From Muscardinus avellanarius (taxonomy: Eukaryota; Chordata; Mammalia; Rodentia; Gliridae): a stretch of 64,000 nucleotides of DNA. The notes beneath the pieces are model-generated. The model did not search any database. It had not been told where the DNA came from and worked only from the letters and a program-made list of their open reading frames with translations. Made by a program: the position numbers and the translations under genes. This document shows, in pieces, positions 600 to 60,835 of this stretch. Numbering within the stretch: the stretch's first letter is position 1; each line of letters begins with the position of its first letter. The stretch spans positions 138,520,727 through 138,584,726 of the forward strand of contig OY726561.1 in assembly GCA_963383645.1 (NCBI GenBank), in the 5' to 3' direction.

Positions 600-891
600 T
601 GTTACGGTTTGGTGGGAACTATTCCCGGGGACCTCTGTTAGGTTCCCAGAAACTGTTCCTGTAGCCGCAGGTCCTTGTCCTGAACTAGGATAAATATAAC
701 ACTAGTCAGAACTCTTGCTGACAGCTTAAATTAATTTATTATTACAAAGATAGAAATATAGAAGACATTTTACAGCCCTACACTATCCTGGGATAGTATA
801 GGGGGGGTGGCCCAAAATTAAGTCACCCACAATTCCTGGATACAGAGCACTTTATAGGCAGCCTTCTGACCTGACTAGATCTCCAGGGCAG
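600..891 (-). mobile_element. Older LTR, proximal part (interrupted by the nested element)
   Basis: Starts TGTTACGGTTTGG on the plus strand. Read on the minus strand it has TATAAAG near 851 and an AATAAA near 735. It continues at 3949 and matches 8822-9425. Confidence 0.7.
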
Positions 892-1212
892 TGATAAGTA
901 AAATAAAAAAATTATGCAAGTAAAATAAAAAATAATGTGAGTACGGCAGAGTGTGAAAAACACGAGAGGTCCGGTACGCATGGCATGTAAAGTTTTAATT
1001 GCACGGCTCTCCCGGGGATCAGGGCGAGGCACCGTGGGGCCGCACGCCTGTCCGAAGCTTGAGGACGCGGGCTCTCCTTTTCAAGGTATGCATCTTGCGA
1101 GATGGGGGTTTACTCGCAGGAACACCCAATTCTCGCGGGGGTTTCAGCCCCTCCCTTGCCCTGCAGAGGTCATGTGACACAAAGTCACATGAGTGCAGGA
1201 CCCAACTTATCA
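892..1212 (-). repeat. 3' LTR of the nested element
   Basis: TGATAAGT...ACTTATCA termini. It is nearly identical to 3612-3943, apart from scattered substitutions and small indels. Confidence 0.85.
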
Positions 1213-3210
1213 TCCTGGCCTTTTGATGGTAGGGATAACGGATGACGATTGGAACCTCTAGCTTCTTCCGGCTGTCAAGGGACGTCGTCAGGGGCCCCAG
1301 GCCGGGAGGAGTCGGGAGTCCAGTCCCCCAGAAGGGGGTGCAGGTGGGTGCATAGCTGCAATGCGAATTGGAGGTTACCCTGGACAGCTTAGTGATGTGC
1401 GCTTGAGGAGGCTTGAACAAGCAAGGGCTATTAAAAAAAAAAAAAAAATCATGAGATTGAGCAGGCGACCAAAAAGGAGACTGGCTTACTCAGTACCTGG
1501 AGAGCTACCCTGAGCTGGCAAAGAGGATGGAGGTTGAGGGATCCAGGAGCCGTCAGTCTTCAGCCAGGCTGAGTAGGGCCAGAGGCGGGGCCTGGTCTGG
1601 AAAGGTGCTCCCCCTGTGTTGAGGCACCTGGGGCTCATCGTTTTCCAAGGGCACTGTTCCAGTGGCCCTCCTGGCCACACGCCAGGCACAGTCTGATTGG
1701 TGGGTGTGGCTTCGCCCCACTTCAGGCAAGCTCCTGGAGTAGTCGTCGTTGCAGTCCTCCACACCTAGGTGATGCTCCAGAGGGCTGAGCGGCCACCACC
1801 AGCCGAAGGGCAGCTACCAGGGATCTGCTTTTTGGCAAAGTCGGAGTGTACGCTCCATCTCCACCTGTTTCTCTCTGGAATTAAAACTTTAGATGCCATG
1901 TTAAGGTTCTGTCAGCTGCGACGGACCTACACTCACACACAAAGAGCGCATCCCGGGGCGGGTGTCCGGCGAGAATGGCAATGCAGGCTCCCCACGGGCA
2001 GAGGGTGTCACCCCAGCCCCGGCCTGGCATTTCCCGCAGCACCTAGGGCGCGCCCGAGAGGGCTGCCCAGCAAAATTGCAGTCTGGTGCGGGCCAAGATG
2101 GTGACTGTGACATCACCAGGCAGCGACTACGCGCCATCACAAAATGGCAGCTGGCGGGAAAATAAATGGAAGCTAATGGGGGAGAGCATTTGGAGGGATA
2201 CCAGACCACTTATAAAAGTTCCTAACTATTCCTGGGCCACCACAACCCATTTCCCAACTTGTATCAAGGCAGACAGGCACTCAGGGCATCTGCTAGTATA
2301 AAGGTTCGACTCCCCATAATTGGTTCGCAGGTGGAAACGAAGAATAGGAAATGGGCATCCCCAATTTCCCTGCTCAATCATTTGGAAACGGAGGTTAAGA
2401 GATAGAGAAGAACGTCTTCATCCCTTCTCAAAACCGGAGGATGACCTGGTCATCCGGAGGGTGGTCCCAGTGGACCGGGGGACAATGGGTCACCAAGCGC
2501 TTGGATTTTGGGGTCCCAGTGGACCGGAAAACCCAAGTCCGGAACCTGCTAACCAAGGGAAGGAGGCAGTTTACCGGAGTGAAGTGTTGCCAGCCAGTGC
2601 TGGCTGCGACAGAAGCGCTGAGAAGCTGCTGGGGGTGCAGTGGAGCTGGGGCACATGGATGCTGGTGGCTGGTGTGGACGGCACTGGTGGCTGGCACAGG
2701 CGGGATCAAACGGTGGCACGCAGGCGGCATGGCTTGCCGGGTTTGTTTGTGGAGACAAAATGGCTTCCAAGCACGCAGCAGGCACTGAGGCTGGGCCCCG
2801 AGGAGCACCGCCAGTGAGCCTGGCTTGGGCGGGCGAAACGGAGCAGCAGCAGCGAGTAGAGCTACGCCTGGCACGGGTGACTGTGGCGGACACTGAAGCC
2901 AGCTGTGTGCCGCCCAATGAGCCTGGCTCGGGGCAGGCAGGGCAAACCGGCCAGAGGTCCCGACGATGACTGGAGCGCCGAGCTGAAACGGCAGTTTTAG
3001 GAGGTCCAAGCGGCAGGCAGAGGTCCTGGCCCGTGAAGGAGGTCGGCAGGCAGAGCAGGTGCCAGCATCACCCAAGGAGCCTGGCTCTGGGCAGGTGGAA
3101 CTGGCAGCCTGGCGGCCGGCGGAGCCTGCACGCCCCGACGGTGGTGGCCGCGGCCACAGTGGCAGTGGAAGATGGCTGTCAGTGCTCCAGAAGAGAGCAC
3201 GTGGGCGGGA

Positions 3211-3410
3211 AAAGATGGCCACCGGCTCTCAGCAGAGCGCAGGGCCAGAAAGATGGCCGCAGACTCTCAGCAGAGCACGGGATCAGAAAGATGGCCAACG
3301 GCTCTCAGCAGAGCTCAGGGCCGGAAAGATGGCCGTGGACTCTCAGCAGAGCCCGGGGCGGGAAGAAGGCCACCGGCTCTCCCGGAGAGCGTGGGGCTGG
3401 GGAAGAAGGC
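3211..3410. repeat. Minisatellite of about five 38-bp units carrying AAGATGGCC motifs
   Basis: GATGGCC starts recur at 3214, 3252, 3290 and 3328, with a degenerate GAAGGCC copy near 3366. Each unit also contains CTCTCAGCAGAGC. AAGATGGC matches the core of the YY1 site. It lies inside the LTR element, shortly downstream of its 5' LTR. Confidence 0.75.
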
Positions 3411-3611
3411 TTACGGTCCAGGCAGGCATGGGGCGTCAGCGGCGGCAGTGGTGGGAGCAACGCCTGCAAGCAGAGCGCTGGTGTGGGACCTCACAGTCGA
3501 GATGCTGGCGGGTCAGAGAGTCCGGGGCTCAAAAAGAGAGTAAAAATAAAAAGAGAAAAAAGAAAAAAAAGGAGGGGAGGGACCCAAGAGTTCTCCCGGT
3601 TCAGCACCAAA

Positions 3612-3943
3612 TGATAAGTAAAATAAAAAATTATGTGAGTAAAATAAAAAATAATGTGAGTACGGTGGAGGTGGAGTGTGAAAAACACGAGAGAGGTCCG
3701 GTACACATGGCATGTAAAGTTTTAATGGCACGGCTCTCCCGGGGATCAGGGCGAGGCACCGTGGGGCCCATGCGCCTGTCTGAAGCTTGAGGACGACGCG
3801 GGCTCTCCTTTTCAAGGTATGCATCCCGCGAGATGGGGGTTTACTCGCGGGAACGCCCAATTCTCGCAGGGGTTTCAGCCCCTCCCTTGCCCTGCAGAGG
3901 TCATGTGACACAAAGTCACACGAGTGCAGGACCCAACTTATCA
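3612..3943 (-). repeat. 5' LTR of the nested element
   Basis: Direct repeat of 892-1212. The primer-binding-site-like motif lies just below 3612. Confidence 0.85.
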
Positions 3944-4097
3944 GGCAGGTCTTTTGATGTGTAGATGACCTGCTCTGGCTCCAGCACAGAACCCCCACAC
4001 CTTTTGTTACACTCCAAAATGTGTTGAGTTGCTTATCTAGAGTCTGGGACTCCCCACATCCTTGAGGAAGTTTGCCCTCTTAAAAATGTAAAAAGGT

Positions 4098-8821: not shown

Positions 8822-9425
8822 TATGGTTTTTTGGGGAGAACTGTTCCCAGGGACCTCTGTTAGGCTCCCAGAAACTGTTCCCATAAACGCGGGTCCTCGT
8901 CCAGACTTAGGACAGATATATACTAGTCCAGACTCCTTCTGAAGACTTAAATTAGTTTATTATTGCAAAGATAGACGTGCAGGTTCTACCTGTTATGGGA
9001 CCATTAGAAAGAGGGAAAGCTGGAGCTTAGAGTAAAGCACCACGCCACAGTGACATAGTGGGATGACCCGAAACAAGTCACCGAAGATTCCTGGACACAG
9101 TACTTTTATAACCACTCTTCTGACCCGACTAGATCCACTCTTTCTCCGGGGCAGGGGGGCAGGTCTTTTGATAGGCCGGCTCTGTTTCCAGCAGACCCCC
9201 ACACCTTTTGTTACAGTCCAAAATGTGTTAAGTTGCTTATCTGGAGTCCTGGATTCTCCCACATCCTTGAGGAAGTTGGATTTTCTTAGAAATGTAAAAA
9301 GGTCCTAGGCTTTTGACCTCCTATTCTCTTGCTAATTACCCTTGATACCTGGAAATCTGCAGCCCTTTCCTTGAAGCTCCTGGCTTTTTTTTTTTTTTTT
9401 TTTTTTTTAACTACCAAAGGTGTAT
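8822..9425 (-). mobile_element. Minus-strand LTR, second copy of the older LTR family
   Basis: Uninterrupted counterpart of 600-891 plus 3949-4440. Read on the minus strand it has TATAAA at 9110-9105 and AATAAA at 8961-8956, and ends in a TTATGG-derived terminus. A run of about 25 T lies at 9384-9409. Confidence 0.7.
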
Positions 9426-9431
9426 TTTGGA

Positions 9432-10030
9432 GGGGCCAAGATGGCGGTAGCCATGGTTGCAGTGGCAACCACAGCCACAGCAATGAGAACTGGCAGCAGC
9501 CAAATAGGACATGTATTCCTCTGAGAAACCCCAGACATCAGATTTTGGTTTAATATCTGATTGGGGCAACATATACAGACATTTATAGCCAATATTTTCT
9601 ACCTAAAATATAAGAGAGAAGAGACAGACCAAGATGGTGGAGACGGCGGTGACAGTGGCAGCCAGTATCGGGGAGAGGCAGGTAGATTCATTCTAATCCA
9701 CCCTGAACTTTTGAGGAAATCTCCCCAAAAGAAGACAGCACCTGCCCCACATGCTCAGGAACTCGGGACAACATACTATGTAAGAAAAATATCCGGGGTG
9801 CGTCAGATGGAGCCCCGCATAATTGCATCAGCTGGTGCCACATATCCTGAGAGCCAAGGGCGCTCCTGGCCGCCACGCTCCTCTGCACAGCGCTGGGGCT
9901 GGGTGTGCAGCAGAACCCGCTCTCCATGGTGAAGCTGTGGGCCTCTGCTCTTGGCAGGGAGATAAAACACATTGCTACAAAGTACTTGGGACCCCAACTC
10001 CTGCAAAAGATACGTACTGTTTTCTTTTAT
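9432..10030 (+). mobile_element. L1 5'UTR-like block 1 (GGGGCCAAGATGGCGG start)
   Basis: Starts with an AAGATGGCGG motif, as many mammalian L1 promoters do. It includes a monomer with CCAAGATGGTGGAGAC and CAGCCAGTATCGGGGAGAGG that recurs at 21511 onward. It ends in an A/T-rich segment near 10020 with no ORF1. It is inserted in the retroviral locus, since flanking sequence resumes at 10650. Confidence 0.6.
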
Positions 10031-10046
10031 TAAAAAATATTAAAGA

Positions 10047-10377
10047 GGGAGGAAGATGGCGGCAGCTGCAGCTGCAGCGGCAACCATGGCCACAGCAGTG
10101 ATGGTTGGAAGCGGCCGAATAGGACATATATCTCTCTGAGAAACCCTAGATAACAGATTTTGATTCAATAGCTTATTGAGACAACACACAGAAACATTTC
10201 CAGTCATGACTTCTTATCTGAAATATAGGAGAGAGTGGAAAATGGCAGAATTAGAGGCAAGATGGCAGCGTGGTGCCCACCACTGCAAGAAAAGTGATTT
10301 TTGGAGGGATATCCCAGAAGAGATTAGAAAGCAGACTGCTCCTGCCACACATGCACAGGAATACTTAACAACAGCCC
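10047..10377 (+). mobile_element. L1 5'UTR-like block 2
   Basis: Begins GGAAGATGGCGGCAGC and shares about 150 bp (ATGGCAGCGTGG, AGTGATTTTTGGAGGGATAT) with 21200-21330. A SINE interrupts it at 10378. It resumes at about 10606 (AACAACATACTCTAGGAGAG) and ends near 10650. Confidence 0.6.
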
Positions 10378-10605
10378 GGCGTGGTGGCACAATCTTGTAA
10401 TCCCTACACTTGGGAGGCTGAGACAGGAGGATCGCACAGGTTCGAAGCCAGCCTCAGCTACTTAATGAGGCTCTCAGCAACTTAGTAAGACCCTGTTCCT
10501 AAATAAAGGATAAAATATGTCTGGGAGTACAGCCCAGAGGTTGAAAAGCCCCTGGGTTTCACCCCCAGTACCACCAAAACAAACAAACAAACAAACAAAC
10601 AAACA
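10378..10605 (+). mobile_element. B1-dID-type SINE inserted in the L1-like block
   Basis: Complete head and tail with an AAAC microsatellite as A-tail (10576-10608). Flanked by TTAACAACA at 10367-10375 and 10611-10619 as target duplication. Confidence 0.85.
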
Positions 10606-10797
10606 AACATATTTAACAACATACTCTAGGAGAGACCAAGAAGGCGGTGCCAATACTGGCACGTTAATACATTTTGACGCCTCTTCACAATAGTGGTACA
10701 AGAAGTGTACCAGTATTGGAATGGCCTAGGAAGATTTGGGAAAGCTCTGATTATTAATATATTTCAAAAGAAAATAATTGGTATATTTCAAAATAGT

Positions 10798-12067: not shown

Positions 12068-12232
12068 AGTGGGAGGCTGATAGTGGAGGATCACAGGTTT
12101 GAGGCCTGCCTGAGCAACTTAGCAAAATCCTTAGCAACGTAGTGAGATCCTGCTTCAAAATAAAAAGGGGTGAAAGTGTAACTTAATGGTAGGACACCTC
12201 TGGTTCAATCCCTAGTACCAAAAATTAAAAAT
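12068..12232 (+). mobile_element. SINE (B1-dID type), diverged, head-truncated
   Basis: Its A-rich tail is the target into which the composite VNTR element inserted. Confidence 0.75.
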
Positions 12233-12246
12233 TAAAAAATATTTTA
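12233..12246. repeat. Left target-site duplication of the composite element
   Basis: TAAAAAATATTTTA, identical to 15780-15793. Confidence 0.85.
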
Positions 12247-12470
12247 TTTTATTTTTTAAAATTAATTTATTTACTTTTAAATTGGTGCATTGTAGTCATA
12301 TATCAATCACATTGGAGTACAAGACTTGAGAGGATATACAAGCACACATCATCCAATTAGCCCTCCTCCAGCCCCCATCCCATTCCCTCCCCCTCCCTCC
12401 ATCCCACGCTTCTTTGGTGATTAACTTTGATGCATTTGTTTATGTACCTCCTGCGTTTTAAAGAGGCTCC
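12247..12470 (-). mobile_element. L1-like 3' end within the composite element
   Basis: Read on the minus strand it has a GGGAGGGGGAGGG-type polypurine run, then GATGTGTGC and GACTACAATGCACCAAT before an A-rich end. The element at 21190-21880 ends in the same motifs (GATGTGTGC, GGCTACAATGCGCCAAT). Confidence 0.65.
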
Positions 12471-12644
12471 GTCCTCCACTATTACATACCCTCTGATTGG
12501 TCACATTAGTTGCTTCACTATAGGGCCCTTTCTATAGCTCAACCTCTTCCTGTTGCCCCTTTCCTCCTAGTTATTGCTGATTAAGAGAAGCATCTGATTT
12601 ATATTTTCTGCGATATTTCTCTGTGCATACTGCGTTGCAAGTAC

Positions 12645-14876
12645 CGATCCCACTCTTGACGGCCCCAGTAGTGGCCTGGCTACTCAGTGGACTGATCCAG
12701 ACCTCGCTGGCTCAATCAGCAGCCTTGCCTCATGGGAGGCCCCGGTTCTGGTCTCGCTGGCCCCTACACTGGCCTAACCCCTCAGCTGGCTTCGGTCCTG
12801 GCCTTGGAGGCCACAGGAGTGGCCTTGCCTCACGGCAGGCTCCAATGCTGGCCATTGGCCCCTGCACCGGCCTAACCCCTTGGCAGGATTCCAATCCCGG
12901 CCTCAGAGGCCCCATCACTGACCTAGCCTCACAGCAGGCTCCAATGCCGGCCTCGTTGGCCCCAGAACTGGCCTAACCCCTCGGCAGGTTCTGCTCCCGG
13001 CCTAGGAAGCCCCAGCACTGGCCATGCCTCACGGCAGGCTCCGATGCTGGCCTCACCTCACGGCAGGCTCCGATGCTAGCCTCGCTGGCCCCAGCACTGG
13101 CCTAACCCTTTGGCAGGCTGTTATCCTGGCCTCGGAGGCCCCAGTACCGGCCTTGCCTCAAGATAGGCTCCGATCCTGGCCTCGGAGGCCTCAGCACCGG
13201 CCTTGCCTCACAGCAGGCTCCAATGCCAGCCTCACTGGCCCCAGATCCGGCCTAACCCCTCGGCAGGCTCCAATCCCGGACTCGGAGGCCCCAGTACCGG
13301 CCTTGCCTCATGGCAGGCTCCAGTGCTGGCCTCGCTGGCCCCAGCACCAGCCTAACCCCTTGGCAGCCTCCGATCCTGGCCTCGGAGGCCCCAGCACCGG
13401 CCATGCCTCACGGCAGGCTCCAATGCCGGCCTCGCTGTCCCCAGCACCAGCCTAACCCCTCGGCAGGCTGTTATCCTGGCCTCGGAGGCCCCAGTACCGG
13501 CCTTGCCTCAAGGCAGGTTCCAATCCCAGTCTCAGAGGCCCCAGCACCGGCCTTGCCTCATGGCAGGCTCCGGTGCTGGCCTCGCTGGCCCCAGCATTGG
13601 CCTAACCCCTCGGCAGGCTCTTATCCCGGCCTTGGAGGCCCCAGTACCAGCCATGCCTCACGGCAGGCTCCAATGCCGGCCTCGCTGGCCCCAGCACTGG
13701 CCTAACCCCTCGGCAGGCTCTTATCCTGGCCTTGGAGGCCCCAGTACCGGCCCTGCCTCAAGGCAGGCTCCGATCCCAGTCTCGGAGGCCCCAGCACCGG
13801 CCTTGCCTCATGGCAGGCTCCGATGCCAGCCTCACTGGCCCCAGCTCCGGTCTAACCCCTCGGCAGGCTCCAATCCCGACCTCGGAGGCCCCAGTACCAG
13901 CTTTGCCTCATAGAAGGCTCTGATGCCGGCCTCGCTGGGCCCAGCACCAGCCTAACCCCTCGGCAGGCTCCAATCCTGGCCTGGGGGCCCCAGCACCAGC
14001 CATGCCTCAAGGCAGGCTCCGATGCTGGCTTCGCTGCCCCCAGCATTGGCCTAACCCCTCAGCAGGCTCTTATCCTGGCCTCGGAGGCCCCAGAACAGGC
14101 CTTGCCTCATGGTAGGCTCTGATGCCGGCCTCGCTGGCCCCAGCACCGGCCTAACCCCTCAGCAGGCTCTTATCCCAGCCTCGGAGGCCCCAGCACCGGC
14201 CTTGCCTCATGGCAGGCTCCAATGCCGGCCTCACTGGCCCCAGCACCAGCCTAACCCCTCAGCAGGCTCTTATCCTGGCCTCGGAGGCCCCAGTACCGGC
14301 CTTGCCTCATGGCAGGCTCCGATGCCGGCCTTGCTGACCCCAGCACTAGCCTAACACCTCAGCAGGCTCCAGTCCCATCCTTGGAGGCCCCAGCACTGGC
14401 CTTGCCTCACGACAGGCTCTGATGCTGGCCTCACTGACCCCAGGACTGGCCTAACCCCTTGGCAGGCTCCAATCCCGGCCTCGGAGGCCCCAGTACCGGC
14501 CTTGCTTCATGGCAGGCTCCCTTGCTGGCCTCGCTGGCCCCAGCATTGGCCTAACCCCTCGGCAGGCTCTTATCCCGGCCTTGGAGGCCCCAGTACCAGC
14601 CATGCCTCACAGCAGGCTCCAATGCCGGCCTCGCTGGCCCCAGCACCGGCCTAACCCCTCAGCAGGCTCCGGACCCGACCTTGGAGGCCCCAGCACCAGC
14701 CTTGCCTCATGGCAGGCTCCAATGCCGGCCTCGCTGGCCCCAGCATCGGTCTAACCCCTCGGCAGGCTCCAATCCTGGCCACGGAGGCCTCAGTAGTAGC
14801 CTTGCCTCACAGCAAGCTCCGATGTCGGCCAGTGGCCCCGGTGCCCGCCTAACCCCTCAGCAGGTTCCAATCACTG
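12645..14876. repeat. VNTR of 50-bp GC-rich units arranged as a 100-bp higher-order repeat
   Basis: Two alternating 50-bp half-units share the core GGCAGGCTCC. One begins CCTTGCCTCA and contains CTCGCTGGCCCCAG. The other begins CCTAACCCCT and contains CTCGGAGGCCCCAG. About 44 half-units are present and the phase is kept almost throughout, with one slip near 13,050. The unit length is not a multiple of three, and stops are rare, so long frames are open in several registers. None is convincing as a gene. Confidence 0.9.
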
Positions 14877-14879
14877 TCT

Positions 14880-15344
14880 CTGTGGTTATTATTTCAAAGG
14901 TTCCAGGTGTAATGTATCAGATGTCTGCCTCCCCTGAGTACTGGCCACTGCCATTGCCACTGCCTCCACCATTTCAAATCCTTCCCAGGCTCTTTTTCCA
15001 CTCTGAATGTTGTCCAGTGTTCCTAAGCATGCGTGATGGTAGCATTCAACATTTGGTGTAATTTCTCCAAAAAAATAAGGTTGGTAGGATCCAGTTTCTG
15101 CTTCTCCTGAATACAAGTCTCCACCACCATCGCGGAGACTTCTTTCAACAGCGCCTTTCTCCTTGGTCTCCGCTAAACTCTCTCCTTACAGGTGATGTCC
15201 GAGATTCTTAACAATATAGAGAAATAGCAGTCCTCCTTCACGGGGAATTTTTCCATACATTCCAGTGCATTTAGATAACTTTTGTCTGCATCTCCAGTGT
15301 CTTGGCATCCATAACGACTTTCTTAACTCCTCTCCGATATTGCG
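14880..15344 (-). mobile_element. L1 5'UTR-like monomer region within the composite element
   Basis: On the minus strand it carries ATGGTGGAGGCAGTGGC and CCAGTACTCAGGGGAGGCAG. These closely resemble the monomers at 21344-21690 and 9600-9770. Confidence 0.65.
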
Positions 15345-15779
15345 TGTTACGCACAGTTCGGCACGGGGCCCAGAGTCCCACGACCCGGGCCCCAGCTGGC
15401 GTGCCCCGCCTGACCCCTGCCCGGGTCCCAGGATACTGGGCCCGGTTTCTCCAGGGGTCTGGCGTGCTACACGTGTTCCGGCCGGGGCCCGGAGTCCCGC
15501 GACCTGGGCCCCAGCTGGCGTGCCCCGCACAACCCCCGCCCGGAACCCAGCGTCTTACTGGGCCCAGTTTCTCCAGGGGTCTGGCATGCTACGCACAGTT
15601 CGGCCCGGGGCCCAGAGTCCTGCAACCCGGGCCCCGGCTGGCGTGCCCCGCGCGACCCCCGCCCAGAACCCAGCATCTTACTGGGCCCGGTTTCTCCAGG
15701 GGTCTGGCGTGCTACACACAGTTCGGCCAGGGGCCCAGAGTCCCGCGACCCGGGCCCCGGCTGGTGTGCCCCGTGCGCC
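15345..15779 (-). repeat. GC-rich tandem repeat, about 3.6 units of 122 bp
   Basis: Repeat starts, marked by GTGCTACRCACAGTTCGG-like motifs, lie near 15345, 15464, 15586 and 15708. Each unit contains GACCCGGGCCCC and CTGGGCCCGGTTTCTCCAGG, and CpGs are dense. It forms the 5' terminus of the minus-strand composite element and could act as its promoter (inference). Confidence 0.75.
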
Positions 15780-15793
15780 TAAAAAATATTTTA
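15780..15793. repeat. Right target-site duplication of the composite element
   Basis: TAAAAAATATTTTA, identical to 12233-12246. A SINE begins a few bases later. Confidence 0.85.
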
Positions 15794-21189: not shown

Positions 21190-21880
21190 GGGCTGTGTGG
21201 AAAATGGCGGAGTTAGAGGCAAGATGGCAGCGTGGCGCCCGCCACTGCAAGAAAAGTGATTTTTGGAGGGATATCCCAGAAGAGATCAGAAAGCTGAATG
21301 CTTCTGCACACATGCACAGGAATACTTAACAACAACATATTCTAGGAGAGACCCAGAAGGCGGTGGCAGTGGCGATGGCCAGTATTCAGGAGAGGCAGAC
21401 AGATCCAACCAAATCCACCTTGAATTTTTGAAGACATCTCTCCCAAAGTAGACTGTTCCTGCCCCACATGCTCAGGAATTCTGAACAACATACTATGTAA
21501 GAGAAAGTTTTGCAGAGACAGACCAAGATGGTGATAGTGGTGGCGGCCAGTATTCGGGAGAGGCAGAAAGAGCAAATCTAATCCACCTTGAATTTTTGAA
21601 AATATCTCCCCAAAAGTAGACTGCTCTTGCTGCACACGTGCAGGAGTTCTGGACAACATACAATGTAAGAAAAATGTCCAGGGCAAGTCGGAGGGAGCCC
21701 CGCCCGTATTGCTGAGCTGACTCGCTGCGCTGGTGTCCCGGGAGACCTCAGCTCATGGCTGCTGCGCTCCTCTGCACTGTGCTGGGGGCCAGGGTGATGT
21801 GTGCATGTGTATCTCCACAAGTTTATTTTATCCCATTGAGATGTATGGCTACAATGCGCCAATAAAACATTATTTAAAAA
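21190..21880 (+). mobile_element. Short ORF-less L1-like element: 5'UTR monomers joined to an L1 3' end
   Basis: Three related monomers of about 155-165 bp (21190, 21344, 21511) carry AAGATGG motifs, CCAGTATTC-GGAGAGGCAG and TCCACCTTGAATTTTTGAA. Unique GC-rich sequence follows (21690-21790). The 3' end has GGCTACAATGCGCCAATAAA and an A-rich tail. No ORF1 or ORF2. A weak AGAAAAT-AAG repeat flanks it (21180, 21885). It shares both ends with the minus-strand composite element at 12247-15779 but lacks the VNTR. Confidence 0.65.
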
Positions 21881-35649: not shown

Positions 35650-36271
35650 CTATTTCCTGTGCAATCAACTGAGACTCACAGCCAACTCCCCTCCCCACAT
35701 CGTGTCTATAGCACTCAGCCTTCCTCCACAGCCCAGGTTGGTGTGGAAGGAGAGAGTCATCGTCCCCCAATGTTTCAGCTGAGAAGGGGCCGTTCTGTCA
35801 GGAGCCTGGTGGCTGATATGGACTTTGGCTCAGCACCAGAGGAGGCCTGAAAGCGTTGACGCTGCACCCGCAGCCGGCACACTCCAGGGAAAAGCAGGAG
35901 GCTGAGCTGGAGAAAGGACCTGCTGGTTCTGCTGAGACAGGCAGAAGTGGGTTGTGGGGGAGGGCCGGGCCTCTCACCTCCCAGGAAACATTTGCTGAGA
36001 CTCAGGAGGAGCCCGAGCATCCTGTGCTGAAACAGCGCAGGCCGCGGCTCTCCACGCTCATCCCAAGAGCCACCTCCATTAACCCTCATCGCAGGCATCC
36101 CAGCCCAGCATTTCAGATAAGGAGCCGGGTCAAGGGCCGGGCTCAGAGTCCTCACAGCAGCTAGAGGAGGAGGCAGGCGGGGGCGTGTTGAAGGAGCCGC
36201 CATCTTCTTTCCTTCAGTGGGTGGCGACTTAATGGGGTCACAGGACACCTGGGAGGCGGCAGCCCAGACTT
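35650..36271. repeat. Near-identical tract of the duplication, copy A member
   Basis: By eye it differs from 50333-50946 by about six substitutions, a 13-bp indel near 35728 and a 6-bp indel near 35870, roughly 99% over 600 bp. The match stops sharply after CCCAGACTTTTC. Flanking duplicated sequence is far more diverged. On the minus strand an ATG in the context AAGATGGCGGC (36195-36205) opens a 142-codon frame down to 35775. I do not recognise the product and do not claim it is coding. Confidence 0.85.
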
Positions 36272-37050
36272 TTCTGTGGTCAGTGCCTCCCTCAGTAATC
36301 ACTCTCCCTTCTTTCCCTCCCTTCCTTGACCGCTGCCATCTACATATACAAGGCCCATCCTCCATCCTCAACCTGGCTCTGGAGCCCCTGACCTTCCTGG
36401 CACCGCGTGGGCCACGCCCCACTTCTCACTTATACCAACTCCAGTCACCTTCTAAATTTTGTCCCACCGAGGCTGCCAAAAACCTCATGCTACTGAGTCC
36501 AGTGGACCGTGGTACCTTAACTCACTGCGCCTCTCAAAAGGCCCCGGCCCTGTCCACTTTCAAAGTCAGCTTCTACCCCTCAGCTCCCTCAACACTCCCA
36601 CATCTCAGGGGAGGCTTCCTCAGGCCCCCACCTCACCCTCCTCTCTCTTGACCTCACCCTCTTCTCCTCTTCTCTCAGCAGATGACCTCGTAAAATAATA
36701 TTTATACTGCTGTCCTGCAGAGAGCTCACACATATTTATGGCCGCCTGACCCATATGTGGACCTCCAGCCACAACTGGAAACTTACAGCACCAACTTAAA
36801 TGGCATCCTGCAATCTCCTTCTCCATCCCTCCTGTCCCGCCACAAGCAGTCAAGAACACCACCATGAAAGCTCTCCAAGACATCACCTCTGGCCATGTCC
36901 GCCGGCCCCGCCCCGGCCGGGCCACCACCTTCTGTCTCCTCTGACCCCGCCTGTCTCTCCAAGCCGTAGTGAGTCCCATGCTTCACACAGTAAGTGCCAC
37001 TTCCTTCAAACACACAAGGCCCCTCCCTCACCATCCAGCTCCTGCTAGAT
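36272..37050. other. Duplication copy A, unassigned C/T-rich sequence
   Basis: C- and T-rich with many short frames on both strands. No exon is recognised. Confidence 0.35.
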
Positions 37051-39183: not shown

Positions 39184-41010
<1,827 letters not shown>

Positions 41011-50332: not shown

Positions 50333-50946
50333 TTGCTGTGCAATCAACTGAGACTCACAGCCAACTCCCCTCCCCACGTCGTGTCTATAGCACTCAGCCT
50401 TCCTCCGTGTGGAAGGAGAGAGTCATCGTCCCCCAATGTTTCAGCTGAGAAGGGGCCGTTCTGTCAGGAACCTGGTGGCTGATAGGGACTTTGGCTCAGC
50501 ACCAGAGGAGGCCTGAAAGCGTTGACGCTGCACCCGCAGCCGCAGCCGGCACACTCCAGGGAAAAGCAGGAGGCTGAGCTGGAGAAAGGACCTGCTGGTT
50601 CTGCTGAGACAGGCAGAAGTGGGTTGTGGGGGAGGGCTGGGCCTCTCACCTCCCAGGAAACATTTGCTGAGACTCAGGAGGAGCCCGAGCATCCTGTGCT
50701 GAAACAGCGCAGGCCGCGGCTCTCCACGCTCATCCCAAGAGCCACCTCCATTAACCCTCATCGCAGGCATCCCAGCCCAGCATTTCAGATAAGGAGCGGG
50801 GTCAAGGGCCGGGCTCAGAGTCCTCACAGCAGCTAGAGGAGGAGGCAGGCGGGGGCGTGTTGAAGGAGCCGCCATCTTCTTTCCTTCAGTGGGTGGCGAC
50901 TTAATGGGGTCACAGGACACCTGGGAGGCGGCAGCCCAGACTTTTC
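50333..50946. repeat. Near-identical tract of the duplication, copy B member
   Basis: This is the partner of 35650-36271. The same minus-strand frame is open here from 50875 to 50441 (144 codons). The only indel inside it is a 6-bp, frame-preserving tandem change. The 13-bp deletion falls outside the frame. The AAGATGGCGGC motif is kept at the putative start. Confidence 0.85.

Positions 50947-57481: not shown

Positions 57482-60835
<3,354 letters not shown>

Follow-up and report, generated by a model that had tools for sequence, protein, structure and literature searches.

A composite retrotransposon family with a tandem repeat core in the hazel dormouse, probably mobilised in trans by L1

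What kind of element is an insertion that ends like a LINE-1 (L1), carries a long tandem repeat core and leaves no room for L1 open reading frames (ORFs)? One such insertion lies on the minus strand of a 64,000-nucleotide stretch of the genome of the hazel dormouse, Muscardinus avellanarius (C5:138520727-138584726), hereafter the window, where it spans 3533 bp (12247-15779). We searched a single genome (mMusAve1.1, 2.497 Gb) and found that the insertion very probably, at roughly 93% for the whole explanation, belongs to a young, high-copy, non-autonomous composite retrotransposon family of this species, which has a variable number tandem repeat (VNTR) core and would be mobilised in trans by L1. 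Across the copies read, we observe dispersal, a constant module order, a VNTR of variable length, target duplications of each copy's own, differing 5' ends, subfamilies and no room for ORFs.

Read directly in element orientation, the modules of the window copy follow each other as M5, T, VNTR, E3 and an A-rich tail, all on the minus strand. M5 (15342-15779) is an array of GC-rich monomers, inside one of which the 5' end of the element falls; Tandem Repeats Finder (TRF) reports 3.6 copies with a period of 123 bp at 15342-15777, and the array has 73% GC and a CpG observed/expected ratio of 0.71 versus 0.38 for the window, consistent with a likely promoter. The tether module T (14873-15341, ~470 bp, 44% GC) is composed of diverged units common to older relatives within the genome and contains 13 subfamily-diagnostic sites. 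The VNTR core (12681-14872, 2192 bp, 67% GC), delimited by TRF and by unit decomposition, consists of 50-bp half-units alternating as 100-bp units, with a TRF period of 50/100 and 18.3 copies of 100 bp at 13049-14872 and degenerate copies out to ~12681. E3 (12247-12680) comprises the end of L1 ORF2 and an L1 3' untranslated region (UTR) with an A/T-rich tail, as recognised by homology to the 3' end of an older element at locus L017, and includes a G-rich tract of the L1 3'UTR type (12361-12407, direct reading); a similar tract precedes the shared 3' end in two ORF1-only L1 copies, L044 and L046. A first-pass annotation, made from the letters of the window alone, had described one minus-strand object of about 3.5 kb with GC-rich 5' repeats, a 2.2-kb VNTR and no ORFs, and this description stands, except that the 5' repeats have a period of 123 and not 122 bp.

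The longest stop-free sense frame spans 95-226 aa in each of 10 copies measured, the frames being taken by length and not compared with profiles. Since the modules account for the whole span of the M5-bearing copies read, there is no room for ORF1 or ORF2. The composite does not combine ORF1 and ORF2 in one unit as an autonomous LINE-1 does, and no ORF1 frame of the kind kept by HAL1 (half-L1) lies between its modules. An Rfam search gave nothing at the gathering threshold, a protein search with the antisense VNTR frame gave 70 candidates with none at E 0.001, and patterns scanned against a viral collection had 0 matches in three scans. The single match of the 3'-end pattern in a bacterial genome was taken as chance.

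When we examined the distribution of this form, we found it throughout the genome. Window 12247-13000 as query yielded 6644 first-look candidates, and all 40 that were scored, on many chromosomes, were at least 95% identical over ~754 bp. The M5 query returned 4178 candidates; of the 40 scored, one is the window copy itself and the remaining 39 show 87-89% identity. Of 2380 E3 candidates, 40 were scored, and the main matches of the 39 other copies were at 97% or above (97-98%). A 30-mer from T, allowing at most one mismatch, occurs at 2646 places (1335 + 1311) versus none for its reversed control (0 + 0); this is a count of T-bearing places, outside which strongly 5'-truncated copies fall. Because the T module occurs at so many places, the ORF-less form is a family, and the single-copy case that the first-pass annotation had held against itself is excluded.

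Three sets of copies were read: a first batch of the 20 best-ranked other copies, picked by similarity of the VNTR and 3' end to window 12247-13000; 10 plus-strand loci among the 40 scored with M5, for which 1.1 kb each was read; and six loci taken from those plus-strand places of the T 30-mer that were listed for C1, of which L052 ends inside E3 at the end of its stretch. The M5-selected and T-selected loci avoid the selection bias of the first batch. The VNTR leads into E3 in 20/20 copies of the first batch, with M5 and T also present in 13/20, and 7/20 (L015, L016, L018, L019, L023, L024, L028) end inside the VNTR, as 5'-truncated L1-type insertions do. The order M5-linker-T-VNTR was found within 1.1 kb in 10/10 M5-selected loci and M5-T-VNTR-E3 in 6/6 T-selected loci. 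VNTR length ranges from 864 to 2195 bp in the 14 copies keeping T and from 1314 to 2664 bp in the six T-selected copies. L052:239-1369 shows M5, a partial T, further M5 and then a complete T, perhaps a nested insertion or a template jump.

Next to the window copy, TAAAAAATATTTTA occurs exactly at 12233-12246 (left copy, on the element's 3' side) and at 15780-15793 (right copy, on its 5' side), which bears out the perfect 14-bp target duplication that had been annotated. With up to two mismatches and on both strands, it has nine matches in the window (two exact) versus a mean of 0.65 in shuffles of the window. The left copy sits at the A-rich end of a match to a B1/ID-type short interspersed element (SINE; 12070-12239, 66%), which adjoins another SINE; as the target is a SINE A-tail, the duplication is AT-rich, and its length alone is therefore modest evidence. 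Read along the element, the site of insertion is ATTT/AAAATATTTTTTA, which is of the L1-endonuclease type, for which the available text of PMC13174262 gives the consensus TT/AAAA. A stronger control is the excess of duplications across copies. Scoring exact duplications that end at the 5' edge and start at the tail in 21 copies (the first batch and the window), with mispaired flanks as control, we found duplications of at least 14 bp in 12/21 copies versus 8/420 mispaired flanks, and of at least 9 bp in 16/21 versus 56/420. The T-selected copies have duplications of 13-24 bp in 5/5 tested (L052 excluded), one of them with a mismatch, and in several copies the nick context is T-rich and then AAAA. 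The many dispersed copies foreseen by the first-pass annotation, with the same module order, their own target duplications, an A-tail and a variable VNTR, are thus found genome-wide.

We also examined the divergence of the copies. Among copies chosen for likeness to the window, the distance from the majority sequence is 2.0% for E3 (1.6% non-CpG, n = 21) and 2.1% for T (1.45% non-CpG, n = 14). Upon adding 16 further T modules, two groups emerge whose majority sequences differ at 13 positions, one with a long linker (~110-155 bp from the mapped edge of M5 to T), and the other with a short linker of 20 bp. Mean non-CpG divergence of T is 1.17% in the 16 short-linker copies and 1.50% in the 14 long- or no-linker copies, and the short-linker type is found in 6/6 T-selected copies. 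The window copy has long-linker states at 13/13 diagnostic sites, the linker itself being lost, and L026 is mixed, with short-linker states at 10/13; only two forks of the T tree reach the starred level, and its branching is rough. At an assumed substitution rate of 2-4 x 10^-9 changes per site per year, the composites would be a few million years old. Separately, the linker at L020:5653-6278 (reverse-complement) measures 626 bp versus the usual ~150, and its extra 480 bp look by eye like a solo long terminal repeat (LTR).

Turning to the origin of the parts, E3 positions 57-429 are 72.8% identical to an L1 3' end at L017:3510-3868 that follows an ORF2 C-terminus, and the ORF2 stretch there matches residues 1134-1244 of LINE-1 ORF2p in PDB 8sxt (E 2.5e-32), which we take to be the human protein. 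Because the ORF2 C-terminus of L017 runs into an E3-like 3' end, E3 can be assigned to the end of ORF2 and an L1 3'UTR, and the L1-like 3' end noticed in the first-pass annotation now has homology behind it. A derivation of E3 from an LTR, like that of SINE-R, had been considered on the cue of a CCAAT box and TTTAAA and was dropped on the same ground. In the older relative at L017:706-3876, 5' modules and tether units form two blocks, after which come a simple repeat, ~100 bp that resemble VNTR units at 63-77% identity, a disrupted stretch of L1 ORF2 C-terminus and the E3-like 3' end. A second, partial copy of this older stage is present at L025:700-1736 (86.5% over 681 bp). Among the matches listed for the older modules, the ORF2/VNTR-like part matches L025, L020 matches for the ORF2 part only, and most short matches look like SINE insertions inside the query. 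L017:706-3876 and L025:700-1736 are possible candidates for missing links in the expansion of the VNTR.

T, together with part of the linker, is similar to the 5' modules of these L017-type elements, and the window itself holds three related stretches, all on the plus strand. Relative B (21200-21880) has two tether-type units and the same 3' end without a VNTR (blastn: 71% over 108 bp for the 3' end, 61-76% for the tether); relative C (9423-10035) has a 5' module with AAGATGGC and one tether unit (73-81% to B, 64-70% to T); and relative D (10036-10650) has 5' modules that contain AAGATGGC and are split by a SINE at ~10374-10614 (75% to C, 94% to B). All three belong to the older group as well. 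The first-pass annotation had spoken of L1 5'UTR-like monomers, which is partly right: T does have units in common with these relatives, in which AAGATGGC falls within the first modules, but no match to them was seen in either of the sampled L1 5' regions described below.

To which L1 does the family relate? A search for L1 ORF1 domains gave 38950 candidates. Of the 150 that were scored, the majority lie in an open frame of 329 aa and have identical scores, and eight of the scored loci were read over 3.3 kb each. In L1-I (L041, L042, L043, L045, L047), ORF1 is open, as is ORF2 as far as read; no composite module was found in the ~1.1 kb upstream of ORF1 at these five loci, and no E3 within the L1 at the three L1-I 3'UTRs read. 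A 65-bp E3 match to L049 (73.8%) lies beyond the A-rich end of the L1 and so outside the L1-I 3'UTR. L1-II (L044, L046) is ORF1-only and HAL1-like, with frames of 306 and 299 aa and without ORF2; it also contains AAGATGGC, its 3' tail is E3-like (68.7% over 179 bp and 72.7% over 172 bp, respectively), and these two loci share only the 3' end with the composite. Further L1-II copies lie at L018:4531-7351 and L029:1-2194, giving four copies seen in all. M5, T and the VNTR are absent from the sampled L1-I and L1-II 5' regions, and no L1 with a matching 5'UTR turned up among these few loci.

These loci bear on the reading that the element is an ordinary L1 with an internal deletion, in which M5-T-VNTR would be the 5'UTR, E3 the 3'UTR, and ORF1 and ORF2 would have been lost. 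The L1 derivation of E3 fits such a history, as does the presence of AAGATGGC near the start of the older tether relatives and in the ORF1-only L044 and L046, a start of this type being common at L1 5' ends. However, 10/10 M5 loci and 6/6 T loci lead to the VNTR and not to ORF1, the five L1-I loci lack the modules, the two L1-II loci contribute nothing beyond the 3' end, and with T at 2646 places the ORF-less form is a family, all of which makes a deleted ordinary L1 very improbable. An ordinary L1 carrying this VNTR, the other case that the first-pass annotation had named against itself, was not seen in the eight ORF1 loci read of the 150 scored, L040 being a chimera. Since the sampled ORF1-intact L1s lack the composite modules, we infer that the composite moves in trans. 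As no E3 was found in the L1-I 3'UTRs read, the composite 3' end derives from another L1 lineage, and its movement is most simply modelled as use of L1-I in trans. A SpIRE-like deletion product has a 5'UTR spliced to downstream sequence of the same L1 family.

The chimera at L040 (with L057 and L058; C1:6705500-6716000, minus strand) has a VNTR of at least 4540 bp and E3 positions 1-331, followed in the same orientation, and with no overlap at the joint, by a 5'-truncated L1-I that runs from within ORF1 to the A-tail. E3 does not resume after this A-tail within the 1.3-kb stretch read, which disfavours a nested L1 insertion, and the chimera may be a template switch of the reverse transcriptase between L1-I RNA and composite RNA.

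The same composite family might instead have had L1-II, with its E3-like 3'UTR, as its partner, which would now be silent and the family extinct. E3 is common to the ORF1-only L1-II copies (68.7% and 72.7%), and a divergence of ~1.2-1.5% implies that many copies are not brand new. Yet the L1-II copies read have no ORF2 and could thus supply ORF1p only, the ORF1 of L1-I is intact and abundant, and the sole chimera joins the composite to L1-I; we regard L1-II as an unlikely partner, albeit one that deserves some weight.

Does the resemblance to primate VNTR composites reflect descent? SVA (SINE-R-VNTR-Alu) and the dormouse composite are both non-coding, with a central GC-rich VNTR of ~50-bp units that varies between copies, an A-tail, target duplications, L1-type target sites, subfamilies and thousands of copies. 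Of the features that define SVA, LAVA, PVA and FVA, the composite shares the variable GC-rich VNTR, whose units are 36-50 bp in that group and 50/100 bp here (arrays of 864-2664 bp across the 20 copies keeping T), and it combines a non-coding body with an A-tail, target duplications and an L1-endonuclease-type site. LAVA (L1-Alu-VNTR-Alu, of gibbons) carries L1-derived sequence in its 3' part according to the available text of PMC7353768, and it too is a non-autonomous element with a VNTR core. This common plan is what membership or close homology by descent would predict. The defining parts nevertheless differ. The 5' side of the dormouse element is made of 123-bp monomers and an L1-related tether; no (TCTCCC)n hexamer was seen by eye at the 5' edges, where the copies read begin in 123-bp monomers or in the VNTR. 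No Alu-like or B1/7SL-type domain was seen, M5, T and E3 matching none of the window's many B1-type SINEs at E 0.001 in a comparison made with these SINEs and not with Alu sequence. Its 3' end consists of an ORF2 tail and a 3'UTR taken from a dormouse L1 lineage, in place of SINE-R from HERV-K; it is L1-derived as in LAVA, without Alu, and the L1 pieces and the lineage are different. Older elements within the dormouse genome account for most of the parts, and the host is a rodent, whereas VNTR composites are described as specific to hominoid primates in the available text of PMC4432496 and PMC7353768. Descent from SVA or LAVA is thus extremely improbable. Because the hexamer, the Alu-like domain and SINE-R were not seen and the host is no hominoid, the composite is, in a comparison by defining parts, an analogue of SVA and LAVA and not a member. 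LAVA, moreover, has been moved by L1 in an assay, whereas the dormouse composite is known from sequence alone.

HAL1 keeps ORF1 and has no VNTR; it is likewise a non-autonomous L1 derivative, and the dormouse ORF1-only family (L044, L046, L018, L029) has the same type of 3' tail as the composite, which in turn lacks ORF1. In mouse-type rodent L1, tandem GC-rich monomers form the 5' part and the 5' end falls within a monomer, as in the composite, whose monomers lead to the tether and VNTR and not to ORF1 (10/10 loci read). A rodent thus seems to have evolved the SVA design independently. This agrees with the first-pass annotation in proposing an SVA-like invention from L1 pieces, although the squirrel lineage named there was wrong, the host being Muscardinus avellanarius of the Gliridae; short strings typical of ground-squirrel SINE and L1 had matched the window only weakly (3-4 mismatches) or not at all. 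No rodent or dormouse VNTR composite was found among the titles and abstract openings of the top-ranked open PMC papers, and an entry in a repeat library or a subscription paper may exist.

Several observations weigh against the proposed L1-mobilised family. Mobilisation in trans is deduced from sequence. The divergence of the first batch is biased low, because its copies were picked by similarity to the window. The eight ORF1 loci are a small sample with only three L1-I 3'UTRs, ORF2 of L1-I was seen open over its first 397 codons only, and an ORF2-bearing L1 with an E3 3'UTR was not found in a search that was not exhaustive. A source of the 123-bp M5 monomers was not found either. In 5/21 copies (L010, L012, L013, L016, L023) exact duplications did not reach 9 bp, L016 having by eye a near-match with mismatches, and some of the 12 long duplications are A- or AT-rich (e.g. 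L017, L025, L029).

Within the favoured explanation, a copy is laid out as [123-bp GC-rich monomers]-[linker]-[tether]-[VNTR]-[L1 ORF2 tail and 3'UTR]-A(n), and its CpG-dense M5 monomers would serve as an RNA polymerase II (Pol II) promoter. The proteins of an autonomous L1, most likely L1-I with its many intact ORF1 copies, would then act in trans on the composite RNA and copy it by target-primed reverse transcription where the target DNA is nicked. The VNTR may aid this step, as measured for SVA, for which removal of the array cut mobilisation to about 30% or 5% (available text of PMC7353768). The probable starting point is older L1-derived elements with ~100 bp of VNTR-like sequence and an ORF2 C-terminus remnant; the VNTR would later have expanded, the ORF2 remnant shrunk to a short tail, new 5' monomers been acquired and, in one subfamily, the linker shortened.

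We lean, with some reserve, towards viewing the family as a dormouse analogue of SVA, made largely from L1-related parts, probably still moving and with intermediates kept, and towards GC-rich VNTR composites being a repeatable way to parasitise L1. An independent rodent family on the same plan would be a natural replicate of the primate VNTR composites: the common features (GC-rich ~50-bp tandem core, GC-rich 5' repeats, A-tail and L1-type insertion) are candidates for what makes a good L1 trans substrate, whereas the differing ones (Alu-like domain, hexamer and SINE-R) would be dispensable. Given this convergence and the lowered mobilisation of SVA upon VNTR removal, the role of the VNTR is directly testable. 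Through this family, the genome of a European rodent also carries many GC-rich insertions that vary in length.

Elsewhere in the window, 890-3960 contains two blocks that are similar by eye and in the same orientation (~890-1430 and ~3605-3960) around a GC-rich interior with 38-bp tandem repeats containing AAGATGGCC, resembling an LTR-type element with a coding-poor interior. Near-identical frames at 35775-36422 and 50441-50920, ~14.7 kb apart, indicate a local duplication, as do two similar frames at 40040-40806 and 58302-59223, which resemble what we take to be NUDT16.

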